Source: Rhodospirillaceae bacterium
Lineage (GTDB): Bacteria; Pseudomonadota; Alphaproteobacteria; Rhodospirillales; JABHCV01
Assembly: GCA_013204045.1 (NCBI GenBank)
Contig: JABMOQ010000107.1
Span: forward strand, 1 to 64,000
Reading direction: 5' to 3'
DNA length: 64,000 bases
Shown here: piece after piece, positions 14,731 through 37,243 of the stretch
How the letters are laid out: every line of letters begins with the position of its first letter
How positions within the stretch are numbered: the stretch's first letter is position 1
Notes under the pieces: generated by a model
What the model was told of the DNA's origin: nothing
The model's input: only the letters and a program-made list of their open reading frames with translations
Database searches by the model: none
Position numbers and translations under genes: made by a program

Positions 14731-14758
14731 TCCGGGCCGGTTGACTTGAAAACTCTGG

Positions 14759-14783: not shown

Positions 14784-14835
14784 CTTTTGTATTAAACTAT
14801 GGCAAACGAATAACCATTGAACGGGGGGAAGGCTT

Positions 14836-17666: not shown

Positions 17667-17667
17667 C

Positions 17668-18641: not shown

Positions 18642-18656
18642 AGGCCGGAATTATAC

Positions 18657-18669
18657 CGATAAATTATCG
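18657..18669. promoter_or_regulatory. Palindrome CGATAA-A-TTATCG in the divergent phnW promoter region
   Basis: A perfect 6+1+6 inverted repeat lies 16 nt upstream of the membrane-protein start and about 75 nt upstream of phnW. It is a candidate operator for either direction. Confidence 0.35.
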
Positions 18670-18745
18670 TTCGGCGTGTTTTTTAATGTGGCTTTTTGCC
18701 CGATTATGACCGATACTGCGCCGTCTTTAAATTGGAGATTCGGCC

Positions 18746-19870: not shown

Positions 19871-19902
19871 CCCCCTGCTTACCCCCTAAGGAGAATTCAA
19901 TT

Positions 19903-20775: not shown

Positions 20776-20806
20776 GGGCGGTTCCGTTACGGGCCGCCCT
20801 TTTTTT
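20776..20806 (+). terminator. Intrinsic terminator after phnX
   Basis: GGGCGG (20776-20781) pairs with CCGCCC (20794-20799), with an inner CCG/CGG extension, followed directly by seven T. The convergent transporter gene ends within the T-run. Confidence 0.9.
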
Positions 20807-21668: not shown

Positions 21669-21809
21669 AGGGTCTGATTTCCGTGATTTCAGGGCGCCGC
21701 GATGATGCGCGCAAAGGCTTGGCGGGTAAAGCAATTCCGCCTACAATCCGGGCAAATAGAGGCTGGCGGACATAACCCCCAGACCGACCCCTTTCAGAGA
21801 GGAACCCAT

Positions 21810-23186
21810 ATGATGGCCATGAACCCGCGCAAGGTTCGCAACGTCGCAGATGCCAAAAAAATTGTCATCGAGCGCAAGCTTGAGCACGTCAAAGTCGGCG
21901 TTTTCGACATTGATGGCATCATGCGCGGCAAATACATATCAAAGGACAAGTTTTTTTCGGCGCTTGAGGGCGGCTTCGGTTTTTGCGACGTGGTGCTCGG
22001 CTGGGATTCGAAAGACGTGCTTTACGATAACGTCACCTACACCGGCTGGCATACGGGTTACCCCGACGCGCCGGTACGCATAATCCCTGAAAGTTGCCGG
22101 GAAATTCCGTGGGAAGACGGCATGCTGTTCTTTCAAGGTGAATTTACAGACAAGGCAGAGGAAATTTGCCCACGCGGGATTTTGCGTAAAGTCCTTGGCA
22201 AAGCCAGGAAGATGGGCTTTTCGGTTTATGCCGGATTCGAATATGAATTTTTCGTGTTCGAGGAAACGCCCGATAGCGTGCGCGAAAAAAACTACCGCGA
22301 CCTGAAGCCCATCGCACCGGGCGAGTTTGGCTATTCGGTGATTCGCAATTCGGTTCATTCCGATTTTTACAGTGACCTGCTCGATACCAGCACCTTGATG
22401 GATTTCCCCATCGAGGGCCTGCACGAGGAAACCGGCCCCGGTGCTTTGGAGGCCGCCATCACCGTCGACAATGGCCTTGCGGCGGCCGACAAGGCGGCGT
22501 TGTTCAAGACGTTCGCCAAAATCATGTCGCAAAAGGTCGGCATGATGGCGACCTTCATGGCCAAGTGGTCGCCGGACTGTCCGGGCGCGGGCGGCCATAT
22601 GCACATGTCCATGAAAGATCAAAAGGGCAAATCGGTGTTCTTTGATCCGAAGAAACCCGGCGGCATGAGCGACCGGCAACGTTACTTTATTGGCGGTCAG
22701 CAGAAACTAATGCCTGAAGTTCTGGCGATGATTTCACCGACGGTTAATTCCTACACCCGTCTGATCCCCGGTTTCTGGGCACCGACCGATGCCAGCTGGG
22801 GCATCGACAACCGCACCTGCGCCTTGCGCGTTATTCCCGGCTCGGCCAAATCGCAACGGGTCGAATACCGGGTTGCGGCGGCCGATGCCAACCCGTATCT
22901 GGCGCTGGCGGCGTCCGTCGGTTCCGGCCTGTGGGGGATCGAAAACAAGGTCGAGCCTGAAAAGCCCATCGAGGGTAACGCCTACGACATGACATTCCCG
23001 AAAAAATTACAACTGCCGGCAACCCTTTGGGATGCGGCGCAGCGGCTTAAAGGCTCGAAGCCCGCCCGCGAGCTGTTTGGCGATGCCTTCGTCGAGCACT
23101 TCGCCGCCACCCGCGAATGGGAAGAACGCGAATTCCGCAAGCACATTTCCGATTGGGAAATGGACCGTTACTTCGAAATTATCTGA
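21810..23186 (+). CDS. Glutamine-synthetase-like gamma-glutamyl-amine ligase
   Basis: A 458-residue type-III GS-fold ATP-dependent ligase (PuuA/GlnA4/GmaS-like group). GAGAGGA 7 nt upstream fixes the start at M-M-A-M-N-P-R; the in-frame extension upstream is intergenic. Active-site elements kept are G-F-E-Y-E-F near 140, G-P-G-A-L-E-A, G-G-H-M-H-M-S near 257, N-R-T-C-A-L-R-V near 330 and Y-R-V-A-A-A-D-A-N-P-Y near 350. True glutamine synthetase has a different length and context. The operon partners (aldehyde dehydrogenase, iron alcohol dehydrogenase) suggest it glutamylates an amino alcohol such as ethanolamine so that the hydroxyl can be oxidised safely. The exact amine is inference. Confidence 0.82.
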   Translation: MMAMNPRKVRNVADAKKIVIERKLEHVKVGVFDIDGIMRGKYISKDKFFSALEGGFGFCDVVLGWDSKDVLYDNVTYTGWHTGYPDAPVRIIPESCREIPWEDGMLFFQGEFTDKAEEICPRGILRKVLGKARKMGFSVYAGFEYEFFVFEETPDSVREKNYRDLKPIAPGEFGYSVIRNSVHSDFYSDLLDTSTLMDFPIEGLHEETGPGALEAAITVDNGLAAADKAALFKTFAKIMSQKVGMMATFMAKWSPDCPGAGGHMHMSMKDQKGKSVFFDPKKPGGMSDRQRYFIGGQQKLMPEVLAMISPTVNSYTRLIPGFWAPTDASWGIDNRTCALRVIPGSAKSQRVEYRVAAADANPYLALAASVGSGLWGIENKVEPEKPIEGNAYDMTFPKKLQLPATLWDAAQRLKGSKPARELFGDAFVEHFAATREWEEREFRKHISDWEMDRYFEII

Positions 23187-23201
23187 TATGGAACCCCTGA
23201 C

Positions 23202-24593
23202 ATGACATCCACCTTACGCACCATCTCGCCCGTAGACGGCTCGGTTTACGTCGAGCGCGACTACGCCAATGAAACCCGGATCGCCGCCGCCCTCAGCGCC
23301 GCCAAAAAGGCGCAAGGCCTATGGCGCAATACGCCTGTGGACGAGAGGGCCGCCATCTGCATGAAGGCGGTCGATGCCTTCGTCGCCATGAAAGACGGCA
23401 TTGGCGACGAAATAAGTTGGCAGATGGGCCGCCCCATCCAATACGGCGGCGGCGAGGTTGGCGGCTTCGAGGAACGGGCCCGCTATATGATCGGTGTCGC
23501 CGCCGAGGCCCTGGCCGATATTGCCATAGAGGAAAAATCAGGCTTCACCCGCTTCATCCGCCGCGAGCCGCTGGGCGTGGTGTTTGTTATTGCGCCGTGG
23601 AACTATCCCTACCTGACATCTGTCAACGCCTTCATGCCAGCGATCATGGCCGGCAACGCGGTTATCTTGAAACATTCGGCGCAGACGCCGCTGTGCGCCG
23701 AGCGTATATTTGAGTCCTTCAAGGTGGCCGGGCTGCCGGACGGGGTGTTCCAGTACCTGCACCTGAACCACGCCGATACGGAGCGCATGATCAAGGCGGC
23801 CGAAGTCGATTACGTTGCCTTTACCGGCTCCGTCCCCGGTGGCCAGATGGTCGAAACCGCCGCCGCCGGCCGCTTCATCGGCGTCGGGCTGGAACTGGGC
23901 GGCAAGGATCCGGGCTATGTGCGGGCCGATGCCGACTTGAATAACGCCGTCGAAACCCTTGTCGACGGGGCGTTCTTCAATTCCGGCCAGTCGTGCTGCG
24001 GCATCGAGCGCATCTATGTCCATGAAGACCTGTTCGACCCCTTCGTCGCCGGCGCCGTCGATCTGGTCAATAAATACAAGCTCGGCAATCCGCTGGACCC
24101 GGAAACCAACCTGGGGCCCATGGTCCGTACCGGGGCGGCGGAATATGTACGCGGCCAGATCAAGGATGCTGTCGCCGCCGGGGCCAAGGCCCTGATCGAC
24201 CCGGCGCACTTTCCGGCCGACAAGGAAGCAAGCCCGTATCTGGCACCCCAGGTGTTGATCAACGTCGATCATTCCATGGAAGTGATGATGGAGGAAAGCT
24301 TTGGCCCCGTGGTCGGCATCATGAAGGTTGCCGGCGACGACGAAGCCATAAAACTGATGAACGACAGCCCTTATGGCTTGACCGCAAGTGTCTTTACAGC
24401 CGATACGGATGCGGCAATTTCCATTGGTGACAGAGTCAGTACCGGGACCTGGTTCATGAACCGCTGCGATTACCTGGACCCCATGCTGGCGTGGACCGGG
24501 GTCCATCATTCGGGACGCGGCTGCACCTTATCTAAACTGGGCTATGACCATTTAACCCGGCCCAAGTCCTTTCATTTAAAAACCACCCTTTGA
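23202..24593 (+). CDS. NAD(P)-dependent aldehyde dehydrogenase of the GS-like operon
   Basis: A 463-residue ALDH. Key motifs are A-P-W-N-Y-P (cofactor and oxyanion region near 132), F-T-G-S-V-P-G-G near 207, the general base Glu in E-L-G-G-K-D near 234, the catalytic cysteine in G-Q-S-C-C-G near 267 and E-E-S-F-G-P near 365. It begins 15 nt after the GS-like gene and ends 16 nt before the alcohol dehydrogenase. In a gamma-glutamylation route it would oxidise the gamma-glutamyl aminoaldehyde to the acid. Oxidation of acetaldehyde from PhnX is a competing possibility. Confidence 0.88.
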   Translation: MTSTLRTISPVDGSVYVERDYANETRIAAALSAAKKAQGLWRNTPVDERAAICMKAVDAFVAMKDGIGDEISWQMGRPIQYGGGEVGGFEERARYMIGVAAEALADIAIEEKSGFTRFIRREPLGVVFVIAPWNYPYLTSVNAFMPAIMAGNAVILKHSAQTPLCAERIFESFKVAGLPDGVFQYLHLNHADTERMIKAAEVDYVAFTGSVPGGQMVETAAAGRFIGVGLELGGKDPGYVRADADLNNAVETLVDGAFFNSGQSCCGIERIYVHEDLFDPFVAGAVDLVNKYKLGNPLDPETNLGPMVRTGAAEYVRGQIKDAVAAGAKALIDPAHFPADKEASPYLAPQVLINVDHSMEVMMEESFGPVVGIMKVAGDDEAIKLMNDSPYGLTASVFTADTDAAISIGDRVSTGTWFMNRCDYLDPMLAWTGVHHSGRGCTLSKLGYDHLTRPKSFHLKTTL

Positions 24594-24609
24594 GCCAAGG
24601 AATACAAAC

Positions 24610-25788
24610 ATGAGCGACGACGCAAAAAACCTTATGGGAAACTGGAACTATCCGACCGCCATGCGCTTCGGCGTCGGCCGTATTTCTGAGCTGGCCGATG
24701 CCTGCAAGGCGCTCGGCATGAAAAAGCCGCTGCTGGTGACAGACCCCGGACTGGCTGCCCTGCCTATGGTATCTGATGCAATCAAGGCCAACGATGCCGC
24801 CGGGTTGCCAACGGGGCTGTATTCCAATGTCAAACCGAACCCGGTGGCGTCGAACGTCGAAGGCGGGGTCAAGGCATACCGGGACGGCGGCCACGACGGC
24901 GTCATCGCCTTTGGCGGGGGCAGCGCCCTTGATGCCGCAAAATGCGTCGCCTTCATGTCCGGGCAAACCCGGCCGATCTGGGATTTCGAAGATGTTGGCG
25001 ATAACTGGAGCCGGGCCGACCCCGCCGGCATCGCCCCCATCATTGCCGTGCCGACCACGTCGGGCACCGGATCGGAAGTCGGCCGCGCCGGCGTCATCAC
25101 CAACGAAGAAACCCACACCAAGAAAGTTATCTTCCACCCGATGATGATGCCGGGCATCGTTATCTCCGACCCGGCCCTGACCGTCGGCCTGCCGCCCCAT
25201 ATCACCGCGGGTACCGGGCTTGATGCCTTCATTCACTGTTTCGAAGCCTTTTGCGCGCCAGGCTTTCATCCCATGGCCGAAGGCATCGCCATCGAGGGCA
25301 TGCGGCTGGTCAAGGACTGGTTGCCGACCGCCGTCGAGGATGGCAAAAACCTGCAGGCCCGGGCCAACATGTTGGCCGCAGCCTCCATGGGAGCGACGGC
25401 ATTCCAGAAGGGCCTCGGCGCCATTCACTCGCTGGCCCACCCGGTCGGTGCCGTCTACGACGTCCATCACGGCCTCGCCAACGCCGTTTTCTGGCCTTAT
25501 GTGATGGACTTCAATCGCGACGCCATATCGAATCGCATGAAACGCCTGTCCCGCTATCTGGGGCTGAAGAATTCAAATTTCGACGGCATGCTGGAATGGA
25601 CACTGGAATTCAGGAAATCCCTGAACATTCCGCACACGGCCAGGGAGATTGGCGTCGAGGATAGCCGGTTGGAAGAGTTGGCCGAAATGGCCGCCGTTGA
25701 TCCGACCGCCAGCGGCAACCCGATCAAGGTGGGCCCGGCGGATATGCTGGCCATGTACAAAGCCGCCATGGAAGGGCGTATCGGTTAA
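24610..25788 (+). CDS. Iron-containing alcohol dehydrogenase
   Basis: A 392-residue group-III (Fe-type) alcohol dehydrogenase. The NAD-binding G-G-G-S region is A-F-G-G-G-S-A-L-D-A-A-K near residue 97, followed by P-T-T-S-G-T-G-S-E near 150. Metal ligands are expected in T-G-L-D-A-F-I-H near 205, A-I-H-S-L-A-H-P near 275 and the following Y-D-V-H-H-G. It is the third gene of the GS-like operon. Best guess: oxidation of the gamma-glutamylated amino alcohol to the aldehyde used by the neighbouring ALDH. Reduction of acetaldehyde to ethanol is an alternative. Confidence 0.88.
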   Translation: MSDDAKNLMGNWNYPTAMRFGVGRISELADACKALGMKKPLLVTDPGLAALPMVSDAIKANDAAGLPTGLYSNVKPNPVASNVEGGVKAYRDGGHDGVIAFGGGSALDAAKCVAFMSGQTRPIWDFEDVGDNWSRADPAGIAPIIAVPTTSGTGSEVGRAGVITNEETHTKKVIFHPMMMPGIVISDPALTVGLPPHITAGTGLDAFIHCFEAFCAPGFHPMAEGIAIEGMRLVKDWLPTAVEDGKNLQARANMLAAASMGATAFQKGLGAIHSLAHPVGAVYDVHHGLANAVFWPYVMDFNRDAISNRMKRLSRYLGLKNSNFDGMLEWTLEFRKSLNIPHTAREIGVEDSRLEELAEMAAVDPTASGNPIKVGPADMLAMYKAAMEGRIG

Positions 25789-25792
25789 AACC

Positions 25793-26434
25793 ATGGACCC
25801 GGCCCTCGTGGAAATCGGCCTGCTGGCCTTTACGACTTTTTTCGCCACCATCAGCCCGGTCGATGTTGCCGCCCTTTATGCGGCGATGACCCCGAAAGCG
25901 ACCGACGCCCAGCGCCGCACCATGGCCATCAAGGGGACGCTGATCGCCGGCGTCATCATGCTGGTATTCGCCCTACTCGGCGATGAAGTCCTGAAACGGC
26001 TTGGCATCACCCTGCCGGCCATGAAGACGGCGGGCGGCATCCTGCTGCTGCTGATCGCCATCGATATGGTGTTCGCCCGGCCGTCGGGTGGCTCGTCGAC
26101 GACCGAGGACGAAACCGAGGAAGCCGGTCACAAGGAAGACGTGTCCGTATTCCCCCTGGCCACCCCGCTGATCGCCGGACCCGGCACCATGGGCGCGGTC
26201 ATTCTGCTGTCGGCCAAAACCGATGGCAATATCGCCCAGGAAATGGCCATCATTGTCGCCATCGTCGCGATCCTGATCGTCACCTTGGGGATGCTGCTGA
26301 TGGCGGGGCGGCTTCAAAAACTGCTTGGCATTACCGGCCTCAACGTCATTACCCGCGTCGTCGGCGTGCTGCTGGCTGCATTGGCCGTGCAATTCATCTT
26401 CGACGGCATTGCATCGAGCGGCCTGTTACGTTAA
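25793..26434 (+). CDS. MarC family integral membrane protein
   Basis: A 213-residue, six-helix membrane protein of the MarC/NAAT family. The start at M-D-P-A-L-V-E-I lies 4 nt after the alcohol dehydrogenase stop; the longer in-frame frame upstream is only that gene read out of phase. Family features are T-F-F-A-T-I-S-P-V-D-V-A near the start and P-L-A-T-P-L-I-A-G-P-G-T-M-G near 120. MarC proteins were once linked to drug resistance, but their function is unclear and a few relate to amino acid transport. It may be co-transcribed with the GS-like operon. Confidence 0.88.
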   Translation: MDPALVEIGLLAFTTFFATISPVDVAALYAAMTPKATDAQRRTMAIKGTLIAGVIMLVFALLGDEVLKRLGITLPAMKTAGGILLLLIAIDMVFARPSGGSSTTEDETEEAGHKEDVSVFPLATPLIAGPGTMGAVILLSAKTDGNIAQEMAIIVAIVAILIVTLGMLLMAGRLQKLLGITGLNVITRVVGVLLAALAVQFIFDGIASSGLLR

Positions 26435-26444
26435 GACCCTTGCC

Positions 26445-26741
26445 ATGACCGAAGAAACAGACAACAAGCCGGTTGATGATCCCGTCGCCATCGCCATCCT
26501 CCTTGCGCTGGATGCCGTGGAAGGCAGTGACACCCTGTCGTTTCAGGATATCGCCAAGCAGATCGCCGAGGCCAAGAGGAAGCCCAAAGACAAGCCCGAC
26601 CTGTGGCGGCGCTATCTTGTGGCGGTCCGCCAGCAGGCCATCCATCTGGCCAAATCCAACCGCATCGAGATCATGCGCAAAGGGGCCGTCGCCGATCCCA
26701 ATGATTTCAAGGGTATCGTCAGGCTCAGGCTGGCGAAATAG
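26445..26741 (+). CDS. DUF3253-like small protein
   Basis: A 98-residue soluble protein starting at M-T-E-E-T-D-N-K, 10 nt after the marC-like gene. The C-terminal winged-helix-like part follows the DUF3253 pattern: paired helices, then R-Y-L-V-A-V-R-Q-Q-A-I-H-L-A, R-I-E-I-M-R-K-G and D-P-N-D-F-K-G-I-V-R-L-R-L. The family's function is unknown. The match is from memory of the pattern, so the family name is moderately sure. Confidence 0.7.
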   Translation: MTEETDNKPVDDPVAIAILLALDAVEGSDTLSFQDIAKQIAEAKRKPKDKPDLWRRYLVAVRQQAIHLAKSNRIEIMRKGAVADPNDFKGIVRLRLAK

Positions 26742-26743
26742 AT

Positions 26744-27172
26744 CCAGCCCCTATCTTATGGGTAGAAGGCGACAGTGCATGCCGAACCCTGCCACCTGAA
26801 TGGGCCGCCGATCTGGATCAGGCCCTCGTCCGCGGGACACGGTTCATCCGCGAGGTGGCATTTTTCCACCACCCCACCAAAACCCTGGTCCTGACCGATC
26901 TGATCGAAAACTATGGCGATGAAACGGCCGCCCGCCTGGACTGGAAAATGCAGATCTGGTGGAGGTTTATCTTCAGGATGTGGAACAACCCGAAACCGGC
27001 CCCTGAATACCAGATGGGATGGAAAGACAAGGCCGCGGCAAAACAGTCTCTGGAACGCATGCTCGCATGGAATTTTGAACGGATCATCATCGCCCATGGT
27101 GACTTGATCGACAGCGATGCCAAATCCGTGGCCATGTCGGCCTGGCGTTCCATTCTTGAAACGAGAGCCTAG
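26744..27172 (+). pseudogene. 5'-truncated DUF4336-type remnant
   Basis: The frame from about 26744 to the stop reads as the C-terminal half of a DUF4336 protein: E-W-A-A-D-L-D-Q-A-L-V-R-G, then V-A-F-F-H-H-P-T-K-T-L-V-L-T-D-L-I-E-N, and later I-I-I-A-H-G-D-L-I. These family members are usually around 230-250 residues; the N-terminal hundred or so are missing. The only NTG-type start of note, a GTG at 26855, lies in the middle of a conserved strand. Upstream the frame runs into the preceding gene's end without ATG or GTG. I read it as a decayed gene; a frameshift or an unusual start are alternatives. Confidence 0.6.
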
Positions 27173-28089
27173 CCTGTCAGAACGGCCAGTTGGGACTTGA
27201 AGTCACCGGACGCCATCAATTTTTTGCAGTTCTCGAAGCGGCCTTCCGCGTAGGCGGTAAAATTTTCGGCCGGGTTGTCGTTGGCCACCTGAATCGCCCC
27301 CCACAAAGTCCACAGCAAATCGCACATGGCCTTGTACATAACCATGCGGGCGTGCTTATCGGGCGGCGGCGGGCCGTCGAAATAGGCTTCCAGAAGCGCC
27401 TTGTCCTGGGCCGGGCCGAATTCTGCCTCGACGGACAGGTCGCCCAAATCCCACATGGCGTCGTTGTTGCCGGAATATTCCCAGTCGATCACATACATAC
27501 GGGCGCCCGTATCGAGGAAGTTTTCGGCCAGCGGATCGCAATGACACGGCACCAACGGTGCCGGGGCCCGAGCCAACGCGGCCCGCACGGCTTCGGCCTG
27601 TGTTTGGGTTTTCTCGTAATCATCCGGAATCCAGGCATTTTTTTCACGCAGCATGGTCAGGTATTCATCCATCATGGTGAAGATGTTGAATTCGGTGGAA
27701 AAATTTTCGCCGCAATCATGCAATTTTCTGAACGCCTGCCCAGCCCGGGCGACGGCCCCCAGATCCTTGAACAGCTGACTGTTCATGGTTACCGCGCCGT
27801 CAATGTAGCGGGTCAGTTGCACACCGTTGGCCGCATCAAAATAAAGTACTTCTGCGTTGATTCCGGCCTTGGCCGTGACCCGGGCGCAGACCTCTTCGGC
27901 CTTGCGGTCGATATATTCCCCGGTGCCTTCGCCGGCGATGCGCAGCATGTAACTGTCTTTTTCACCTTCGACGCCGATCCGGAAATTCCGGTTGGTCAGG
28001 CCGCCCAGACGCTCATAGCTGAAATGGTCCGCCGCCCTGCCTTTGAACAACGGAATCTCCAGCAGGGTATCGGTAACGTCGTCACTCAT
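27169..28089 (-). CDS. Choline/ethanolamine-kinase-like phosphotransferase (1)
   Basis: A 306-residue protein-kinase-like small-molecule kinase of the APH/choline kinase superfamily. A Brenner-type loop is visible as C-H-C-D-P-L-A-E-N-F near residue 183 (Cys where Gly/Asn is usual) and the metal-binding D in Y-V-I-D-W-E-Y-S-G near 203, with N-terminal G-G-L-T-N-R-N-F-R as the nucleotide loop. The D-W-E-Y-S-G-N-N form is characteristic of choline/ethanolamine kinases. It overlaps the demethylase by 4 nt. Substrate is probably an amino alcohol, inferred from family and operon. Confidence 0.8.
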   Translation of the reverse strand: MSDDVTDTLLEIPLFKGRAADHFSYERLGGLTNRNFRIGVEGEKDSYMLRIAGEGTGEYIDRKAEEVCARVTAKAGINAEVLYFDAANGVQLTRYIDGAVTMNSQLFKDLGAVARAGQAFRKLHDCGENFSTEFNIFTMMDEYLTMLREKNAWIPDDYEKTQTQAEAVRAALARAPAPLVPCHCDPLAENFLDTGARMYVIDWEYSGNNDAMWDLGDLSVEAEFGPAQDKALLEAYFDGPPPPDKHARMVMYKAMCDLLWTLWGAIQVANDNPAENFTAYAEGRFENCKKLMASGDFKSQLAVLTG

Positions 28090-30500
28090 GCTTTCAGCCT
28101 TTCCATTTTTGGATCATACAGCGGGCCATCGTGGCGGGTTGCCTGGAACACCTCGCCGAAGGCTTCTATCTGGAAATCGTTATGTTCGCATTCCCCGACC
28201 GGCAGGTAGCCGAACACCATGGGCTTGCCGATGGTGTGACCAAAATTGGCGCTGGTCGTCACTTCCAGCACTTTTCCGTCGCGCATGATCGGCTCCGAGC
28301 CATAAATGGCGGCTTCACCGTCTAGGGTGAAGAACTGCAACTTTCGAGTCACGCCCTCATTCCGGATGCGCTCCAACGCGTCCCGGCCAATGAAATCACC
28401 CTTCTTCATATTGACGCGGAAACTCAATCCCGCCTCGTAGGGGTTATAGTCGGGTGTGATGTCGGTGCTCCAGTAAAGATAGCCTTTCTCCATGCGCAGG
28501 GTGTCGATGGCCCGGTAGCCCACATTGGCGATGCCGAAATCCTTGCCGGCCGCGGCCAACGCCTGATAGACGGGCAGCATATGCGGTTTTTCCATATGCA
28601 GTTCCCATCCCAGTTCGCCCACATAACCGATGCGCTGGGCGCGTACCGGGTGGCCGGCGATCTTGATGTGTTTGAAAGTGGCGAACGGCAGGGCCCCGTT
28701 TGAAACGTCATCGTCGGTGACTTTCCCGAGAACATTGCGGGCATCTGGTCCACACAGGTTGATGACGCCGTTAACCTCGGTCAGGTCTTCGATGACCACC
28801 GAACCGTCGCCGGGGATATGGCCTTCAATCCAGCAACGATCATGAACGCCGAAGGCGCTGCCGGTGACCAGATAAAAATCATCCTCCCCCGAACGAGTGA
28901 TCGTCAGGTCGGCCTCGATGCCACCGCGGGGATTGAGGAACTGGGTATAGATGATCTTGCCCGGCTCCTTGTCCATGTCCGATACCGCCAGCCCTTGCAG
29001 AGCCTTCAGCGCACCAGCGCCGGAAATACGGAATTTGCTGAACGATGATTGATCGATCAGGGCGACGCGTTCGCGCACCGCCTTGTGTTCTTCCGCCACA
29101 CGGCCGAACCAGTTGGGACGGCGGAAGGTCAGGGTCTCGTCCAGTTTTTCGCCCTTGGGGATAAAGAAGTTGGGACGCTCCCATCCGGCCTTCGATCCAT
29201 AAGACGCGCCGTGCTCTTTCAACACATCGTAAATGGGGCTCTGGCGGATGTTGCGGGCCGACTCATGTTCTTCGCCGGGAAAGTGGACGTAATAGGTCTT
29301 GCCGTATGATTCGATGGTCCGTGGGTACAGGAACGATTTTTCATTGTGGTGATCGTTGAAGCGGCGGATGTCGAACGGCCACAGGTCGATACTGGGTTCG
29401 CCCTCGATGATCCACTCGGCGACCATCTGGCCGACGCCGCCGGCCGCCGCGATGCCAATTGAAATACCGGTGGCCGAGAAAAAGTTATCGACCTCAGGCG
29501 CCCAGCCAAGAATAAAACCTTCGTCCGCCGACCACGGAATCGGCCCGTTGATCATTTGGCGGATGCCGACTTCGTTGACGATGGGGGTGCGTTTGCCTGC
29601 GTTGATGGCCAACTGCTCGAAGCGGTCAAAGTTTTCCGGCAGCAGTTCCTGGGCGAAAGGCTCGGGGATACCGTTTTCACCGAAAGAAACCGTGTTCGGC
29701 TCCCAGCCGCCGATGGCGATGCCGCGCACTTCCGGTTTGTAATAGATCAGATGGTCAGGATCGCGCATACCCGGCATGTTATCGGGTACGCCGGGGATCG
29801 GGTCGGTGATGATGTACTGGTGTTCCAGTGCCACCGCCGGTGACTTGACCCCTGCTTTAAGCGCCAGGTCCCGGGACCAGAATCCGGCGGCATTAACGAC
29901 CACGTCGCATTTGACGGTGCCGTGATCGGTGATGAGTTCCTTGACCCGCCGGTTCTCGACGATGATATCCAGGACCTTGACGCCCTGGACGATCTCGGCG
30001 CCGTTGTCGCGGGCGCCCTTGGCAAAGGCCTGGGTCACACTGGAGGGGTCCACATAACCGTCGGTCGGGATGAAGGCGGCGCCAAGCACATCTTCGGTGC
30101 TCATGATCGGGAACAGATCTTGCGCTTGCTTGGGGGAAAGCATTTGCAACTCGAGCCCGAAGCTTTTGGCCATGGACGACGCCCGTTTAAGTTCCAGCAT
30201 CCGCTCATCAGAACACGCGAGACGGAGGCTGCCGACCTGCTTCCAGTCCACCACCTGTCCGGTCTCGGCCTCAAGACGGCCATAGATCTCGACACTTTTT
30301 TGCAGCACCCGGGTCAGGTTGCGCGACGAGCGCAATTGGCCGACAAGCCCCGCCGCGTGCCAGGTGGACCCCTGGGTCAGGCCGTTTTTTTCGATCAGCA
30401 GGACGTCCTTTTTACCCATTCTGGCCAGTTGATAAGCAACCGAACAGCCGACGATACCACCGCCGATGATGATGATTTCTGCATCCCTGAGGTCTGCCAT
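28086..30500 (-). CDS. FAD-dependent dimethylglycine/sarcosine-dehydrogenase-like demethylase
   Basis: An 804-residue enzyme with an N-terminal FAD-dependent amine oxidase domain (G-G-G-I-V-G-C-S near 12; S-T-W-H-A-A-G-L near 45, whose His binds FAD covalently in dimethylglycine dehydrogenase). A linker (370-425) and a C-terminal GcvT-type folate-binding domain (430-800, with Y-V-G-E-L-G-W-E and D-T-L-R-M-E-K-G-Y) follow. Such enzymes remove N-methyl groups and can pass the C1 unit to tetrahydrofolate. Flanking kinase genes and the betaine-type transporter upstream suggest an N-methylated amine from outside. The precise substrate is not readable. Confidence 0.87.
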   Translation of the reverse strand: MADLRDAEIIIIGGGIVGCSVAYQLARMGKKDVLLIEKNGLTQGSTWHAAGLVGQLRSSRNLTRVLQKSVEIYGRLEAETGQVVDWKQVGSLRLACSDERMLELKRASSMAKSFGLELQMLSPKQAQDLFPIMSTEDVLGAAFIPTDGYVDPSSVTQAFAKGARDNGAEIVQGVKVLDIIVENRRVKELITDHGTVKCDVVVNAAGFWSRDLALKAGVKSPAVALEHQYIITDPIPGVPDNMPGMRDPDHLIYYKPEVRGIAIGGWEPNTVSFGENGIPEPFAQELLPENFDRFEQLAINAGKRTPIVNEVGIRQMINGPIPWSADEGFILGWAPEVDNFFSATGISIGIAAAGGVGQMVAEWIIEGEPSIDLWPFDIRRFNDHHNEKSFLYPRTIESYGKTYYVHFPGEEHESARNIRQSPIYDVLKEHGASYGSKAGWERPNFFIPKGEKLDETLTFRRPNWFGRVAEEHKAVRERVALIDQSSFSKFRISGAGALKALQGLAVSDMDKEPGKIIYTQFLNPRGGIEADLTITRSGEDDFYLVTGSAFGVHDRCWIEGHIPGDGSVVIEDLTEVNGVINLCGPDARNVLGKVTDDDVSNGALPFATFKHIKIAGHPVRAQRIGYVGELGWELHMEKPHMLPVYQALAAAGKDFGIANVGYRAIDTLRMEKGYLYWSTDITPDYNPYEAGLSFRVNMKKGDFIGRDALERIRNEGVTRKLQFFTLDGEAAIYGSEPIMRDGKVLEVTTSANFGHTIGKPMVFGYLPVGECEHNDFQIEAFGEVFQATRHDGPLYDPKMERLKA

Positions 30501-30512
30501 TGCCGTTCTCCG

Positions 30513-31382
30513 TTATCCCGAAAAGGTTTCATAGGCACGCCGAAAGCGTGCCAGGTTTTCATCAGTGTAGGCGATATAGTCAAAATCTATGGTGGAATGA
30601 ACTTCCGACACCATGCTCCACATGGTTTCGCGCAGCAGCGAAGCGCATTTCATGGCTTCGTAACGGCGCAACAAGCCATCGTCTGCGGGCGCGCCGTAAT
30701 AGGCTTCAAGCAACCAACGTTCCTGCTCTGGTGAAAACTCGTTGTTGGACGCCAGCCCACCCAGATCAAACAGCGGGCTGTTGTAACCGGCGTAATCCCA
30801 ATCGATCAACCATAGCCTGGCGCCGTCATCGATGAAATTTGCGGCCAGTAGATCGTTATGACCGAACACCACCTCTACCGGACCGACGGCTTTTTCCAGT
30901 ATCGCCGCCATTTCACTTAAAGAATCTAACTGGCCCAACATGCGGCTGTCAGCTTCCTTCAGGGTCTGGGTGTAATCCCGCAGCACATGAAAAACCCAGA
31001 ACACCAGCGCCGCCCCCCTGAAGTGGTTGGGCAATTCATCATGCACCTTTCGGATCAGGGGAATAATACGTTGCAGGTTCTCAGGCTTGCGCACATCTTC
31101 CGGCCCGAAGGTTTTACCGTCGATGAACCTCAGAACCAGGGCGCCGGGCTCGGCGTGGACGACTTCCGGTGATATGCCCGCCGCAAATGCCGCCCGGCTG
31201 GTGGCCAGTTCGTTGAAACGCATGATGCCGTGTTCGGGAATATCATCACCAATCCTGACCACGAATTTTCCCGAATTGTCGGTAACGACAAAATTGGTGT
31301 TGGTAATACCGCCGGCCAGTGGTTGCGGATCGACCGGTCCGTACCAGCAACGAAGTGCGCGTGCTTTTTCGATTGCTTCCAT
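30513..31382 (-). CDS. Choline/ethanolamine-kinase-like phosphotransferase (2)
   Basis: A 289-residue paralogue of the first kinase. G-G-I-T-N-T-N-F forms the nucleotide loop, F-G-H-N-D-L-L-A-A-N-F the catalytic loop and W-L-I-D-W-D-Y-A-G the metal site. Here the catalytic loop is canonical (H-N-D), unlike the H-C-D of the other copy, so the two may differ in activity or substrate. It lies between the permease gene (3-nt gap) and the demethylase (12-nt gap), in one operon. Confidence 0.82.
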   Translation of the reverse strand: MEAIEKARALRCWYGPVDPQPLAGGITNTNFVVTDNSGKFVVRIGDDIPEHGIMRFNELATSRAAFAAGISPEVVHAEPGALVLRFIDGKTFGPEDVRKPENLQRIIPLIRKVHDELPNHFRGAALVFWVFHVLRDYTQTLKEADSRMLGQLDSLSEMAAILEKAVGPVEVVFGHNDLLAANFIDDGARLWLIDWDYAGYNSPLFDLGGLASNNEFSPEQERWLLEAYYGAPADDGLLRRYEAMKCASLLRETMWSMVSEVHSTIDFDYIAYTDENLARFRRAYETFSG

Positions 31383-31385
31383 GCC

Positions 31386-33392
31386 CTACTCCAGTCCCAA
31401 TTCGGCCTTGCGCCGGGTGCTCCAGGCGTTGATCAGGCGATCGGAAATAATGGCGATGAAGGCGACACAGACACCGGCGACGATGCCGCGCCCGGAATCG
31501 GCCTTGGTCAGGGCGATGTAGACCTCCTGGCCGAGATCCCGGGTGCCAACCAGCGCCGTAATCACCAGCATGGACAAGGCCATCATGATGGTCTGGTTGA
31601 TGCCGAGCATGATTTCCGGCAGCGCCAGCGGCATCTGCACTTTCCACAACACCTGGCGGCGGGTGCAACCGGCGGCGCGGGCCGCTTCGATCAAATGCGG
31701 CGGCACCTGACGCAGGCCGTGGTTTGTATAGCGGATGGCCGGCGCCAGGGCATAAGCGATAACCGCCAGCATGGCGGCAAAATCGCCGACCCGAAACAGC
31801 ATCACCACCGGCATCAGGTAAACGAACGATGGCAATGTCTGCAGGGTATCGATCGCCGCCTGCACGATTCGGTTCAATCGTTCGTTACGGGAAGCGGCAA
31901 TGCCGATGGGGATACCGATGGCGCAGGCGATCAACACCGAAAGACCGCACAAGTAAACGGTGACCATTGATTTCGGCCATTGCCCGACAACGGCGATGAA
32001 CAGCGCCAATGCGCCGGTCAGCAGCGCCAGCCGCCAACCGCCCAGTTGCCAACCGCCCAGCGCCACCAGCCCGACGACCGCCACCCATGGCAGGCCGAGC
32101 AGGAAGCGCTTGAACGGAATCATAATATTCAGCAACAGGAAGTTCTTGAAGCCGTCGAGCTGGTCGAAATAGTTGATGTTGATCGACCTGACCAGATCGC
32201 CCCAAAAAGCGCCGGTGGTCAGCTGCAGGGTTTCCGGGTAGGCATTCATGACCGTCATTCCCGCGCCCGCCGCCCATGTGACGGCGATAATGGCAAAGGC
32301 CAGACATAAATGCGGATTGCGGCGAATGAAGCCGTGACTCGTTACCTCGTGCACCGGTGGCGGGCGCCGGGCATAGGCCTGACTCAAACGGTCCAGCGCG
32401 ATGGCCAGCAGGGTAATCGCCAGCCCGGCCTCGACCCCCTCACCAATTTTAAGACGCTTCAAGGCATTGAGCACATCAAAACCAAGCCCGCCGGCGCCGA
32501 TCATGGACGCGATGATGACCATGTTCAGGGACAGCATGACGACCTGGTTGACGCCGACCATCAGGGTCGACTTGGCGGCCGGGATTTGCACCTTCCATAA
32601 TAACTGCCGCGGGCTGCACCCGGCCATGGAGCCGAATTCGGTAATTTCCGACGGCACCTGTTTTAACGCCAGCAAGGTAATACGGACCATGGGCGGCATG
32701 GCATAAATGATGGTGGCGATCATCGCCGAAACGGGGCTGAACCCGAACAGGATCAATATGGGCACAAGATAGGCGAACACCGGCACCGTTTGCATCAGGT
32801 CGAGGACCGGCCGGATGGCCAATTCAAAACGCCGCGACCGGAACCCGGCGATGCCCAGCGCCAACCCACCGGCGACACCGAACGGCACCGCGATAATAAT
32901 CGACGACAAGGTCACCATGGCGCTATCCCACTGCCCGAAGACAGCGAGATAAAGGAAACACAGCCCGACCAGCAACGCCAGCTTCCAGTCCTTGGCATAA
33001 AGCCCCATCAGGGAGACCACGGAAATGACGGCCAGCCACGACAGGCGCGGGAAAATCTCGACCGCGTCGGAGCCCTGCCCCTTCAGAAAGCCGGTCGACA
33101 GCAGGCTTCTGACCAGCCAGTAGGGCTGCTCGATAACCCAGGCGATGGAGCGGGTAAGCTCCCGGAAGGTAAACAGGCCCAGGTCAAATTCATTGAGCAG
33201 CCATTTTACAAAATCGCTGATCCAGACACTTATGGGGATGACCCATTCCCGTGGAAACTTGAAGGCCCAAGGAAGGTTTTCCTTGCCGATCAGGCTGACA
33301 ACTACGGCCAGCCCGAGCGCCACCACCCAGATGATAAGCCACGGATTTACCGAAATCGGACGGTGGCCGGAAACGATGGCAGGGCTGTTCAC
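31386..33392 (-). CDS. Betaine/quaternary-amine ABC permease, two fused domains
   Basis: A 668-residue inner-membrane permease with two complete ProW/OpuAB-type domains (about residues 60-330 and 370-660). Conserved loops are E-F-G-S-M-A-G-C-S-P-R-Q-L-L-W-K-V in the first and E-A-A-R-A-A-G-C-T-R-R-Q-V-L-W-K-V in the second. Most glycine-betaine systems use one domain forming a dimer, so this is a tandem fusion. The first base pairs overlap the ATPase stop (4 nt). The binding protein encoded upstream is OpuAC/ProX-like. Confidence 0.87.
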   Translation of the reverse strand: MNSPAIVSGHRPISVNPWLIIWVVALGLAVVVSLIGKENLPWAFKFPREWVIPISVWISDFVKWLLNEFDLGLFTFRELTRSIAWVIEQPYWLVRSLLSTGFLKGQGSDAVEIFPRLSWLAVISVVSLMGLYAKDWKLALLVGLCFLYLAVFGQWDSAMVTLSSIIIAVPFGVAGGLALGIAGFRSRRFELAIRPVLDLMQTVPVFAYLVPILILFGFSPVSAMIATIIYAMPPMVRITLLALKQVPSEITEFGSMAGCSPRQLLWKVQIPAAKSTLMVGVNQVVMLSLNMVIIASMIGAGGLGFDVLNALKRLKIGEGVEAGLAITLLAIALDRLSQAYARRPPPVHEVTSHGFIRRNPHLCLAFAIIAVTWAAGAGMTVMNAYPETLQLTTGAFWGDLVRSININYFDQLDGFKNFLLLNIMIPFKRFLLGLPWVAVVGLVALGGWQLGGWRLALLTGALALFIAVVGQWPKSMVTVYLCGLSVLIACAIGIPIGIAASRNERLNRIVQAAIDTLQTLPSFVYLMPVVMLFRVGDFAAMLAVIAYALAPAIRYTNHGLRQVPPHLIEAARAAGCTRRQVLWKVQMPLALPEIMLGINQTIMMALSMLVITALVGTRDLGQEVYIALTKADSGRGIVAGVCVAFIAIISDRLINAWSTRRKAELGLE

Positions 33393-34417
33393 AAGCCACC
33401 CTCCTTCTCGACCAATACCGCCAGCACCGCGTCCCGGGTAACCTCGCCGACAATGGCGCCGCCTTTATTGACGACCGAAAAGGGCGCACCCGCGTTGACA
33501 ATATCGGCGGCCAAATCGCCAATCTTGGTGGTTACCAGAACCTGCCCGGCGACGGTGGCGCCAGATACCGGCCCCATGATGGCGCCCGCCGACAGTACCT
33601 TGGCGCGCGGAATGCCGCGGGTGAATTCCGCCACATAGTCGGTGGCCGGATTGAGCACCAGTTCTTCCGGCGTTCCCGTCTGGATGATTTCGCCGCCGTT
33701 CATGATGGCGATACGGTCAGCAAGGCGAATGGCCTCGTCAAAATCATGGGTGATAAAGACGATGGTTTTATGCAGCACGTTTTGCAGACGCATGAATTCA
33801 TCCTGCATCTCGCGGCGGATCAACGGATCGAGGGCCGAAAAAGGTTCGTCTAAAAACCAGATTTCCGGTTTCACGGCCAAAGACCGGGCAATGCCCACGC
33901 GCTGCTGTTGGCCGCCCGACAATTCGCGCGGATAGTACCCTTCGCGCCCGACCAGCCCGACCAGTTCGATAACTTCGCGGGCGCGGGCCTCGCGGGTTTG
34001 CCGGCCCACCCCCTGAACCTCAAGGGGAAAGGCGACGTTGCCTAATACGGTCAGATGGGGCAGCAGGGCAAAATGCTGGAACACCATGCCCATCTTGTGC
34101 CGGCGAATCTCGATCAGCTCTTTTACGCCGGTTTTGAGCAGGTCCCGGCCTTCGAACAGGACCTCGCCGGCGGTCGGCTCGATCAGCCTGCTCATGCACC
34201 GGACAAGCGTCGACTTGCCACAGCCGGACAGCCCCATGATAACGAAAATCTCGCCCTCGGCGACCGACAGGCTGACATCGCGCACCGCGCCGATATAGCC
34301 TTCCTCGGCCATATTGTTTGTGGTCGGCGCATTATTGTGCCGGGACAGAAAACCCGCCGGGTTTTCGCCGAAAATCTTCCAGACATTGTTGCAGACAAGC
34401 TTACTGGACTCAGACAT
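33389..34417 (-). CDS. Betaine-type ABC transporter ATPase (ProV/OpuAA-like)
   Basis: A 342-residue ATPase. Walker A is G-L-S-G-C-G-K-S-T near residue 58, signature L-S-G-G-Q-Q-Q-R-V near 165 and Walker B I-W-F-L-D-E-P-F-S-A-L-D-P. The C-terminal 75 residues resemble a single degenerate CBS unit; full ProV proteins carry two, which sense ionic strength, so osmotic gating may be absent. The N-terminal extension containing F-G-E-N-P is typical of ProV. It is separated from the binding-protein gene by a strong terminator. Confidence 0.88.
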   Translation of the reverse strand: MSESSKLVCNNVWKIFGENPAGFLSRHNNAPTTNNMAEEGYIGAVRDVSLSVAEGEIFVIMGLSGCGKSTLVRCMSRLIEPTAGEVLFEGRDLLKTGVKELIEIRRHKMGMVFQHFALLPHLTVLGNVAFPLEVQGVGRQTREARAREVIELVGLVGREGYYPRELSGGQQQRVGIARSLAVKPEIWFLDEPFSALDPLIRREMQDEFMRLQNVLHKTIVFITHDFDEAIRLADRIAIMNGGEIIQTGTPEELVLNPATDYVAEFTRGIPRAKVLSAGAIMGPVSGATVAGQVLVTTKIGDLAADIVNAGAPFSVVNKGGAIVGEVTRDAVLAVLVEKEGGL

Positions 34418-34447
34418 AACGACTATTGCCTTGAATAGAAAAGGCGA

Positions 34448-34485
34448 AAACGGCGGCAGAACAGTTCCCTGCCCGGCCGCCGTTT
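34448..34485 (-). terminator. Terminator after the betaine-type binding protein
   Basis: On the minus strand AAACGGCGGC and GCCGCCGTTT form a 10-bp stem, continuing into TTTC and a later CTTTTC. It sits between the binding-protein and ATPase genes, as in the AEP operon. Confidence 0.8.
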
Positions 34486-34507
34486 CTGCATTTTAACGAC
34501 TGGAACG

Positions 34508-35461
34508 CTACTTGATCCAGGCTTTCCATACACTCTCGTTTTTCTTCATCCATTCATCGACGGCGGCTTCCAACTTTACGCCGTCAAGATCGATTTTAAC
34601 AATCATGGCACTCATCTCGGCATTTTCGATATGGAAATTACGAATTGCCTTGTAAGCGCCCGGCCATTTCTTCTCGCCGCCTTTCCAGCCGACCTTCTTG
34701 ATCCAGCCGAACGGCTTGCCGCAATCGTACTTCATGCTTTTGTTGATGCCCCATTTGGGATCGTTGTAGCAGGCATCGGTGTACTCGGGGAATTCGACCC
34801 ATTCGCCTTCGTACTTGGCGACTGCCCAATGTGGCGCATAAATCCACAGCAGCACAGGCGCCTTGCGGGCATAGGCGGAATCCAGTTCGGCAAACAACGC
34901 CGCATCGGTGCCGGCATGAACGACTTCGAAGTCCATACCCAGGGCCTCGACCCGTTCATCATCGAAGCCGGCCCAGGTGACGGGACCGCCAAGATAGCGG
35001 CCCTTGGGGGCGGTTTCCGGAGTCGAGAATGCCTCGGCGCACTTGGCCAGGGCCTTCCAGTCGGGCAGGCCCGGACACCTTTCCTTCATGTACAGCGGAT
35101 ACCACCAATCTTCCTTGGCATCCATGCCGGTTTCGCCAAGATCGACGGTCTTGCCGGTGGCCAGGCTTTCGTCCATGGCCTGCTTGCCGGTGGTTTCCCA
35201 CATTTCCATGGCAACGTGCAGATCGCCCGATTCGAGGCCCGCGAACTGGGCAATATAATCGGCCTGAACATATTCGATGTTGTAGCCAGCCTTTTTCAGA
35301 ACTTCACCCATGATATGGGTGGTGACGTACTGGCCGGTCCAGTCATGGATGGTCAGTTTGATAGGGTCCCGGGATTCCACATCCGCTTGTGCGGGCGCGG
35401 AAAAAGCGAGGCCGACAGCCAGGGCCGAAGCCACGGCGGCCGTACGTAGTATTGAGATCAT
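34508..35461 (-). CDS. Betaine/quaternary-amine binding protein (ProX/OpuAC-like)
   Basis: A 317-residue periplasmic protein with a clear signal peptide ending near P-A-Q-A (residue 27). The mature part has many aromatic residues expected to form a cation-pi cage: H-D-W-T-G-Q-Y near 40, M-W-E-T-T near 86, D-W-W-Y-P-L-Y near 118 and Y-A-P-H-W near 205. This supports a quaternary or methylated amine ligand such as betaine, choline or carnitine, but ligand identity cannot be read. It is the first gene of a minus-strand operon running to the first kinase. Confidence 0.87.
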   Translation of the reverse strand: MISILRTAAVASALAVGLAFSAPAQADVESRDPIKLTIHDWTGQYVTTHIMGEVLKKAGYNIEYVQADYIAQFAGLESGDLHVAMEMWETTGKQAMDESLATGKTVDLGETGMDAKEDWWYPLYMKERCPGLPDWKALAKCAEAFSTPETAPKGRYLGGPVTWAGFDDERVEALGMDFEVVHAGTDAALFAELDSAYARKAPVLLWIYAPHWAVAKYEGEWVEFPEYTDACYNDPKWGINKSMKYDCGKPFGWIKKVGWKGGEKKWPGAYKAIRNFHIENAEMSAMIVKIDLDGVKLEAAVDEWMKKNESVWKAWIK

Positions 35462-35627
35462 GATCGATTCTCCCCGTTATATGTTGTGGCGCTTATGCGC
35501 CTTGCTTGGTTATGCCGAGCCGATAGTTTCAAACAATCGCCCCCTTGAATCAACTTCAAACCATATTTTATTTGTGGAATTCCAACAAAAACCACATACT
35601 CGCCAAAAATGCAGGAGGCTCGGGTCC
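35462..35627. promoter_or_regulatory. Divergent control region, betaine-type operon / DeoR-2
   Basis: 166 nt without a gene. It carries an inverted repeat TGTGG-N14-CCACA at 35573-35596 in an AT-rich segment, and the ribosome site GGAGG (35614-35618) of the DeoR gene. It is a candidate operator, not matched to a known motif. Confidence 0.35.
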
Positions 35628-36389
35628 ATGCGGCGAATGGAACGACAAACGGCAATTCTAAAGGAAGTCGCCAAGACAGGTTCGGTGACGGCCTTGGACC
35701 TTGCCCGGGCCCTTGCGGTCTCCGGCGAGACCATCCGCCGCGATATCATGGCCCTATCCGAAGACGGCCTTTTGCGCCGCACCCACGGCGGTGCCGCCAT
35801 GCCGAACCCGTTCGAGGAACCGAGTTTCCGTCAGCGCCTGGGCGAGAACCCCGAGGCCAAGAAAGCCATCGCCCGGCTCGCCGCCGAACAGGTCCGGAAC
35901 GGCGACTCGCTGATGCTCGACACCGGTAGCACCACTGCCTATGTGGCGCGGGCGTTGCTCAACCACCGGGACTTGCTGGTGGTCACCAATTCCGTCGATA
36001 TCGCCCGCACCCTGGCGACCCGGCGCGGCAACCGGGTCTATATGGCGGGCGGAGAGTTGCGCGCCGATGACGGGGCGTCATTGGGCCAATCGGCATCCGA
36101 ATTTGTGCAGCAATTCCGCGTCCGCCTGTCGATCATTTCCATCGGTGCCATCGACGAAGGTGACGGGTTGATGGATTATTACCTGGATGAAGCCGAATTA
36201 TCGCGAGCCATTATCGGGCGGGCTGAACGCGCCATCATCGTTGCCGACCACACAAAATTTGGCCGCCGCGGCGTCGTCAAGGTGTGCGGATGGGAACACA
36301 TCGCCACCCTGATCACGGACCGCGAGCCGCCGAAATCTTTCGTCAATAATTTGAAAAAAGCGGGAACCGAAATTCTGGTTACGGATTAA
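35628..36389 (+). CDS. DeoR-family transcriptional regulator (island regulator 2)
   Basis: A 253-residue DeoR protein starting at M-R-R-M-E-R behind GGAGG 9 nt upstream; a longer open frame upstream is intergenic. The winged helix (residues 5-55) has S-G-E-T-I-R-R-D-I. The sensor domain has L-D-T-G-S-T-T-A near 90 and D-H-T-K-F-G near 208. It is divergent from the betaine-type operon and converges (4-nt overlap) with the amidotransferase gene. A phosphorylated effector is usual for this family; products of the two nearby kinases are attractive candidates. Confidence 0.88.
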   Translation: MRRMERQTAILKEVAKTGSVTALDLARALAVSGETIRRDIMALSEDGLLRRTHGGAAMPNPFEEPSFRQRLGENPEAKKAIARLAAEQVRNGDSLMLDTGSTTAYVARALLNHRDLLVVTNSVDIARTLATRRGNRVYMAGGELRADDGASLGQSASEFVQQFRVRLSIISIGAIDEGDGLMDYYLDEAELSRAIIGRAERAIIVADHTKFGRRGVVKVCGWEHIATLITDREPPKSFVNNLKKAGTEILVTD

Positions 36390-37243
36390 CGTTTCAAGGA
36401 CGGAATAACCAGCTGCTCGATCCAGTTGCGAACCTCAAGCTGGCGAATGTCTTCTTTCATCACATCATCGTCGATGCCGAGCAGCCAGGCCAGGTCGCTA
36501 CGATCATGATCCTGATGCAGGGTTTCCAGAAGATCGACGTATTTTTCGGCGTCTTCGCGGTTTTTGAAAAAGCCGAGCTTGATCAGCACATCGATACGGC
36601 ACCAGGTCAGCCGCGCCAGTTCGTGAAGATCGTATTCGGGATGATACTGGGGCGACCAGAACACGCCGCCCTTGTATACCACCGACACCGCCTGCACCCG
36701 GGTGAAGGCGTTCGACGCCAGCACGCTCGAGCCGGTTGGCATGTGGGTAATTTCATCGACGTGGCTGATGAAGGCATCGAACACATTTGCCTTGTCGATG
36801 TACATGGGATGGCTGCGGCCCTCGGGCGTCAGTTCGATCTTGCGGGCAATGCCCATTTCCCGGCCCCGCGGATTGGCCTGAACGATACCGCCGGCGGCAA
36901 CGACGGCGATCTGGGCCGCCCAGCAACTGCCGAAAGCCGGCACTCTGGCCTCGAACCCGGCACGGCAAAATTCGATCTGGTTCCTGACTTCCGGGCTGCC
37001 GTCATAGGCGGTCAGGCTGCATCCGGTCCACGCAATGCCGTCATAATCGGACAACCCTGCGCCTGTCGGTAATTTACAGCCGGGATCACTTGGATAAACG
37101 ACATCGCATGAAGCATCGGGCACGAACCGCTTCAACATTTTACTATATAGATCGCCCGCCGTCGAAGCGCCGCCTGCGGCAAGCTCGTCGCGAGATTTTT
37201 TGACGTAGCCGTCGATAATCAGGAATCGAATATTCTCAGTCAT
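36386..37243 (-). CDS. Class-I glutamine-amidotransferase-like gamma-glutamyl hydrolase
   Basis: A 285-residue GATase1-fold protein starting at M-T-E-N-I-R-F. The nucleophile Cys is in F-G-S-C-W-A-A-Q near residue 105 (usual G-x-C-x-G-x-Q, so the elbow is altered) and the His-Glu pair in Y-H-P-E-Y-D near 205. No synthetase partner is encoded beside it, so it is more likely a stand-alone hydrolase like PuuD than an amidotransferase subunit. With the GS-like ligase 14 kb away it could remove gamma-glutamate at the end of a glutamylation route. This link is inference. Starts 1 nt after the HAD stop. Confidence 0.75.
   Translation of the reverse strand: MTENIRFLIIDGYVKKSRDELAAGGASTAGDLYSKMLKRFVPDASCDVVYPSDPGCKLPTGAGLSDYDGIAWTGCSLTAYDGSPEVRNQIEFCRAGFEARVPAFGSCWAAQIAVVAAGGIVQANPRGREMGIARKIELTPEGRSHPMYIDKANVFDAFISHVDEITHMPTGSSVLASNAFTRVQAVSVVYKGGVFWSPQYHPEYDLHELARLTWCRIDVLIKLGFFKNREDAEKYVDLLETLHQDHDRSDLAWLLGIDDDVMKEDIRQLEVRNWIEQLVIPSLKR

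Follow-up and report, generated by a model that had tools for sequence, protein, structure and literature searches.

Bacterial breakdown of ethanolamine through gamma-glutamyl intermediates has been described in several organisms. For Phaeobacter sp. MED193, an alphaproteobacterium, a published account (PMC10132767) names a four-step route consisting of ethanolamine gamma-glutamylase, gamma-glutamylethanolamide dehydrogenase, gamma-glutamylacetylaldehydeamide dehydrogenase and gamma-glutamylglycine amidohydrolase, and reports higher amounts of these enzymes during growth on phosphorylethanolamine. The same account states that closely related genes were demonstrated to be an ethanolamine pathway in Chromohalobacter salexigens and Agrobacterium tumefaciens C58, and that the C. 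salexigens homologue of the binding protein EtoX binds ethanolamine, the dissociation constant of the Phaeobacter protein being 7.9 uM. The same steps were proposed in Streptomyces and, again, for C. salexigens, according to one paper (PMC6529630) and a review (PMC9397018), respectively. These descriptions make it a known route, Alphaproteobacteria included. Here we analyse a stretch of 64,000 nucleotides (the window) from Rhodospirillaceae bacterium (assembly GCA_013204045.1, contig JABMOQ010000107.1), which holds genes for a glutamine synthetase-like (GS-like) ligase, two dehydrogenases and, at a distance, a hydrolase. What these genes encode looks like the already known pathway, with a ligase outside the subfamily of PDB 5DM3 and with dispersed genes.

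In its genome, which measures 2.68 Mb and is 98.7% complete, the window is contig C68. The genes proposed to form the route, and one conserved neighbour, are:

21810..23186, plus strand: GS-like gamma-glutamyl amine ligase with ethanolamine as proposed substrate (Gln-synt_C; catalytic residues; EtoX or permease neighbours in homologues)
23202..24593, plus strand: aldehyde dehydrogenase (ALDH), proposed gamma-glutamylglycine maker (Pfam Aldedh; GQSC and ELGGK; near the ligase gene)
24610..25788, plus strand: iron-containing alcohol dehydrogenase (Fe-ADH), proposed gamma-glutamylethanolamide dehydrogenase (Pfam Fe-ADH and ADH_Fe_C)
25799..26434, plus strand: MarC-family membrane protein, conserved neighbour (Pfam MarC, 171 bits)
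36386..37243, minus strand: class-I glutamine amidotransferase (GATase)-fold hydrolase, proposed gamma-glutamylglycine amidohydrolase (triad; fold; fourth-gene position in relatives)

A preliminary description of this DNA had placed the ligase, ALDH and Fe-ADH genes in one operon and the GATase gene about 11 kb further on. We confirmed these open reading frames (ORFs) and coordinates, and the Pfam families agree (Gln-synt_C 335.3 bits, Aldedh 405, Fe-ADH 163, ADH_Fe_C 147.3, GATase class I 45.9). Gaps of 15 bp and 16 bp separate ligase from ALDH and ALDH from Fe-ADH, while the GATase gene lies on the opposite strand, 10.6 kb beyond Fe-ADH and 13.2 kb from the ligase gene. Since most homologues align from them, the starts 21810 (preceded by GAGAGGA) and 37243 fit better than the longest-ORF starts, 21702 and 37330.

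As described in PMC10132767, the Phaeobacter operon (EtoVWX, ETAGA, GAADDH, GETADH, GGAH) has the same four steps and enzyme roles, but unites everything with a tripartite ATP-independent periplasmic (TRAP) transporter, whereas the transporter and hydrolase genes lie elsewhere in our case. The GlnA4 cluster of Streptomyces coelicolor, as described in PMC6529630, has a gamma-glutamylethanolamide route with aldehyde dehydrogenase and glutamine amidotransferase genes, but a short-chain dehydrogenase where the window has an Fe-ADH. The PuuA-PuuB-PuuC-PuuD putrescine route of E. coli also proceeds by glutamate masking, oxidation and hydrolysis; PuuA and PuuD are 30% and 21% identical to the window proteins, and the flavin oxidase PuuB contrasts with the alcohol dehydrogenase of the window. 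In genome G086, the order EtoX-ligase-ALDH-FeADH is found, with an EtoX 100% identical to PDB 4uab and a ligase 100% identical to 5DM3. From the origins of these structures (the C. salexigens protein Csal_0678 for 4uab, a Chromohalobacter enzyme for 5DM3), we take this to be the Chromohalobacter ethanolamine operon, that is, Csal_0678 and its neighbours. Its ALDH and Fe-ADH are 54% and 55% identical to those of the window, whereas its ligase belongs to another subfamily.

Based on gene identity, catalytic residues, conserved linkage and the ethanolamine transporters that adjoin homologues, we infer the substrates and reactions of all four enzymes. The GS-like ligase would join glutamate to ethanolamine, using ATP; the Fe-ADH would oxidise the hydroxyl of gamma-glutamylethanolamide to an aldehyde, which the ALDH would oxidise to gamma-glutamylglycine, and the GATase-fold hydrolase would free glutamate and glycine. 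In this genome the route would draw on an EtoX-like transporter gene on another contig and on a hydrolase gene beside a second operon, to which that gene is joined in relatives. Judging from the sequence evidence, we consider an ethanolamine catabolic route by gamma-glutamylation probable (about 0.75). The preliminary description had proposed this route in its split layout; the chemistry was soundly inferred, and GATase genes do neighbour ligase genes in relatives. Its claim that the route was undescribed in an alphaproteobacterial setting fails, given what is reported for Phaeobacter sp. MED193 (PMC10132767). Such a route is of interest because marine bacteria obtain nitrogen from the ethanolamine of membrane lipids.

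The ligase and its dehydrogenase partners

Homologous loci were the best 80 of 520 from a scan of genome contigs. Their ligases are 64-79% identical to the window ligase, their records are titled Alpha- and Gammaproteobacteria, Desulfobacterales, Nitrospirota and others, and in 48 of them the ligase gene is flanked by 5 kb or more in each direction (full flanks). Of the 80 ligase genes, 67 have an Fe-ADH relative no more than 5 kb away (44 of the 48 with full flanks) and 53 an ALDH relative (37 of the 48). This recurrence indicates that the trio did not come together by chance; ligase, ALDH and Fe-ADH form a real unit. The ALDH holds the cysteine motif GQSC as well as ELGGK, and the best NCBIfam model of the Fe-ADH is 4-hydroxybutyrate dehydrogenase (333.5 bits, below the cut-off of 500). 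A MarC gene directly follows Fe-ADH in three relatives of the family and is found within 5 kb of the ligase gene in 5/80 loci.

The ligase falls below the curated cut-offs of the GlnA, PuuA and type III GS models: it scores 235.6 bits as a glutamine synthetase (cut-off 429), 184.9 as a gamma-glutamylputrescine synthetase (GGputSyn; 650) and 207.8 against the type III model TIGR03105 (469.6). We aligned it with 31 hand-chosen ligases of its own type, under a rule that rows with internal stops would be excluded, and read the alignment with a list of functional GS sites. Twelve residues that bind metal, nucleotide or glutamate in GS are conserved in 32/32 ligases. The ammonium-site Glu327 is Trp in all 32 (Tyr in PuuA, Phe in the 5DM3 type), which fits an amine ligase and not a glutamine synthetase. 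Assignment of the window ligase to the 5DM3 type was ruled out by 30% identity and a separate clade; the tree has long branches (the genome's own C8 and C29 rows, PuuA, 11zs) and served solely for this two-clade separation. At the position that the 5DM3 type occupies in G086, between EtoX and ALDH-FeADH, a window-type ligase is found in L083, L130, L131 and L133, reached via the Halomonadaceae locus L083, indicating that two distant ligase subfamilies fill one operon slot. If both do the same job there, surveys keyed to one subfamily would miss the other. The structure model of the ligase has a mean predicted local distance difference test score (pLDDT) of 81.6 and is weak at residues 66-81 and 174-180; none of our conclusions rests on it.

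Ethanolamine transporters and the hydrolase

Transporter genes beside homologous ligases point to ethanolamine as the substrate. The ligase is present in four of the six genomes of the family sample (the window's own included; completeness is 67% in one of the six), and in all three others that hold it, EtoX, ligase, ALDH, Fe-ADH and MarC are consecutive (L120-L122). At the best locus of the contig scan, L007, which coincides with family genome G011 in coordinates and matches, the EtoX-like TRAP binding protein scores 570 bits against 4uab. An EtoX gene is present within 5 kb of the ligase gene in 10/80 loci and an ethanolamine-permease-like gene of the TIGR00908 kind in another 10/80, with no overlap; one or the other is present in 17 of the 48 loci with full flanks. 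Four of the permeases were compared with the TIGR00908 cut-off of 382 bits: two pass (553 and 550) and two fall just below (379 and 358). A window-type ligase also adjoins EtoX in a further genome, G297 (L203). EutB, of the B12-dependent Eut pathway, was detected in none of the six family genomes and was detected in the E. coli positive control. Within the window, no EtoX gene lies beside the ligase gene; the genome's own EtoX-like gene and a DctM gene sit on contig C35 (L123:1850-5996), next to an MTTB-family methyltransferase gene.

The Cys-His-Glu triad of the GATase is invariant in 34/34 aligned homologues, a set of hand-chosen rows that we preferred to another containing duplicates of the same gene (that other alignment excluded truncated matches, matches with stops and matches below 70 bits). 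For the AlphaFold model (mean pLDDT 95.1), Arabidopsis gamma-glutamyl peptidase 1 is the nearest solved fold by Foldseek and by VIA-align (Z 25.3, root-mean-square deviation 3.2, 245 residues); in VIA-align the glutamine amidotransferase 1o1y comes next (Z 24.1), and PuuD scores 20.7. Fold likeness by itself is no proof of function. Across 289 genomes sampled from the class, with the ligase called at E <= 1e-180 and the GATase at E <= 1e-55, the window-type ligase occurs in 45, the window-type GATase in 29 and both in 10. In 7 of these 10 the GATase gene lies 1.3-2.6 kb downstream of the ligase gene on the same strand, that is, in fourth-gene position; the other three are the window's own genome and two with the GATase on another contig. 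Ligase and GATase are jointly present or jointly absent in 6/6 family genomes, and at E <= 1e-5 the sole match to the GATase in its own genome is the gene itself.

In 7/80 loci a window-type GATase is encoded within 5 kb of the ligase gene. A different GATase is encoded there in 24/80, mostly gammaproteobacterial by title; the ten rows listed share 21-24% identity with the window GATase. In G010 and G011 the GATase matches cross one TGA; intact ORFs of 287-289 aa are present, indicating that the TGA precedes the conserved GATase start. Tandem window-type GATase genes were seen in L014, L017 and L038, one copy 64-71% and the other 41-49% identical to the window's.

Evidence against the ethanolamine route and alternative readings

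Several observations weigh against the ethanolamine route as drawn here. The genome's own EtoX-like protein, encoded on C35, is 64% identical to the EtoX of relatives. Co-occurrence of EtoX with the window-type ligase is weak among the 289 genomes (9 seen, 5.6 expected, p 0.08; these Fisher tests ignore phylogeny), and in 30 EtoX loci with 1.5 kb flanks we found no window-type ligase, six of the 5DM3 type, one of the 11zs type and none at all in 23. The window ligase is only a distant, 30% identical relative of 5DM3, in a separate clade, and its glutamate-site Asn264 is replaced, by Pro in 31/32 ligases of its type and by Ala in 1/32. In addition, the window GATase lies 13.2 kb from the ligase gene on the opposite strand, and 19/29 class genomes with a window-type GATase have no window-type ligase, although 6 of those 19 have EtoX.

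The separation of the GATase from the ligase also fits a variant in which the trio does make an ethanolamine route, with the window GATase working for the second operon and another hydrolase completing the route. Indeed, an operon with kinase, dimethylglycine dehydrogenase (DMGDH)-like and HAD genes ends with the GATase, away from the ligase, in G133 and in family relatives, and the 19 genomes without the ligase point the same way. We think this variant unlikely in view of the fourth-gene position of the GATase in 7/10 genomes with both, and of the absence of a second match in its own genome. Quite improbable, in our estimate, is a ligase whose preferred substrate is a different small amino alcohol, with N-methylethanolamine as the foremost candidate; oxidation of the glutamylated amine would then yield gamma-glutamylsarcosine, from which the hydrolase would free sarcosine for demethylation to glycine by a DMGDH-like flavoprotein. 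In 9/80 loci the 5 kb around the ligase gene include a DMGDH-like gene (at least 38% identity); several of these loci come from Reyranella and have a TRAP system that differs from EtoX. The DMGDH-operon kinase and the ligase co-occur in 18 genomes, against 4.4 expected, and both operons adjoin in L066. However, the closest relatives and 20/80 loci have transporters of ethanolamine families, and secondary amines would be unusual substrates for a ligase.

Family-level matches would also allow the ligase to be a glutamine synthetase, a gamma-glutamylputrescine synthetase or a methylamine ligase, since it matches all three kinds. With scores so far below the respective cut-offs (429, 650 and 470), the ammonium-site Glu lost in 32/32 and an alcohol dehydrogenase partner that suits none of these substrates, we regard this as very improbable. 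Hardly credible is the notion that ALDH and Fe-ADH serve the neighbouring 2-aminoethylphosphonate (AEP) route by handling acetaldehyde released by PhnX, the ligase being unrelated to them: PhnW and PhnX are encoded just upstream, and PhnW relatives occur in the flanks of 12/80 ligase loci (a raw count), but ligase and Fe-ADH stand together in 67/80, mostly without PhnW. The ethanolamine route remains our preferred reading of the four genes.

The second operon and neighbouring genes

The second operon and the genes next to it are:

27169-28089, minus strand: choline-kinase-like protein (Pfam Choline_kinase/APH; GntI-like under the cut-off)
28086-30500, minus strand: DMGDH/GcvT-like flavoprotein (GcvT/sarcosine-oxidase-like matches)
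30513-31382, minus strand: choline-kinase-like protein (Pfam Choline_kinase/APH; GntI-like under the cut-off)
31386-33392, minus strand: double-length ProW (NCBIfam, Pfam)
33389-34417, minus strand: ProV (NCBIfam, Pfam)
34508..35461, minus strand: ProX/TmoX-like substrate-binding protein (Pfam OpuAC; best solved relative 4xz6, 282 bits)
35628..36389, plus strand: DeoR-family regulator (ORF 35310-36389, start uncertain; Pfam HTH_DeoR, DeoRC)
37245..38006, minus strand: HAD-family hydrolase, which travels with the GATase (Pfam HAD)

In G133 (L181) the order is ProX, ProV, ProW, kinase, two DMGDH-like genes, kinase, HAD and GATase, and parts of it recur in family relatives (L171-L173). The window has one DMGDH-like copy against two in G133, a 45% relative of its copy lying on another contig, and its DeoR gene separates HAD and GATase from the rest. 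The HAD gene adjoins the GATase in L012, L017, L064, L171-L174 and L181. In L066 the second operon, a DeoR gene and the ligase operon stand side by side, and DeoR relatives lie between the kinase/ABC (ATP-binding cassette) operon and the ligase operon in both L053 and L066. A search with one simple pattern (TTCG, 1-8 bases, CGAA) and inspection of the intergenic sequences found no DeoR-type palindrome common to both operons. The co-occurrence of the second-operon kinase with the ligase has a p of 5e-10, and its co-occurrence with EtoX (13 genomes seen, 3.5 expected) a p of 2e-6, phylogeny again being ignored. The second operon is conserved and co-inherited with the ligase and with EtoX.

The preliminary description had spoken of betaine uptake. 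By family models the ABC importer is of the ProXWV/choline type, but the closest solved relative of its binding protein is 4xz6, which is titled glycine betaine/proline and is presumably TmoX, which binds trimethylamine N-oxide (TMAO). It is a tentative and rather unlikely idea that the second operon forms the upstream half of the pathway, an N-methylated amino alcohol being imported, demethylated to folate-bound one-carbon units and fed into the gamma-glutamyl route. If so, this would be a widespread, undescribed route yielding one-carbon units and nitrogen from methylated ethanolamines, part of which would be kept in 1.4 Mb, SAR11-sized genomes. No paper title describing the second operon was found in a literature search whose coverage left out most subscription papers, so that its unpublished status is not established. 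The co-inherited second operon is the most interesting open part of this locus; its substrate, once known, would show whether breakdown of methylated amines is tied to the ethanolamine route.

The DMGDH-kinase pair is also present in two 1.4 Mb genomes, G391 and G162 (L191, L193), outside the 45 genomes with a window-type ligase, and G162 additionally has ProW, ProX and EtoX. DMGDH-like genes of 42-44% identity lie near the ligase gene in L060, L063, L077, L080, L082, L085 and L086, some with a TRAP system other than EtoX.

Upstream of the ligase, PhnS2, PhnT2, PhnU2, PhnW and PhnX (13687-20751) all score above curated cut-offs and make up a complete set for AEP uptake and the PhnW-PhnX route. 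The link to AEP genes claimed in the preliminary description stands as a neighbourhood; a functional link is not shown. A methyltransferase-like gene lies on the other strand within the AEP region (17668-18354). For methylated AEP, PMC10590968 describes the FAD enzymes PbfB-D, and the term 'glutamine synthetase' does not occur in its text. The opposite-strand gene at 20805-21734, immediately upstream of the ligase gene, encodes a membrane protein related to the phosphonate-associated family TIGR03340 (121.9 bits, cut-off 288), and such a relative is also found within 5 kb of the ligase gene in L008, L009 and L019. Further downstream, an aldehyde ferredoxin oxidoreductase-like gene (44857-48009) adjoins a pyridine-nucleotide oxidoreductase gene.

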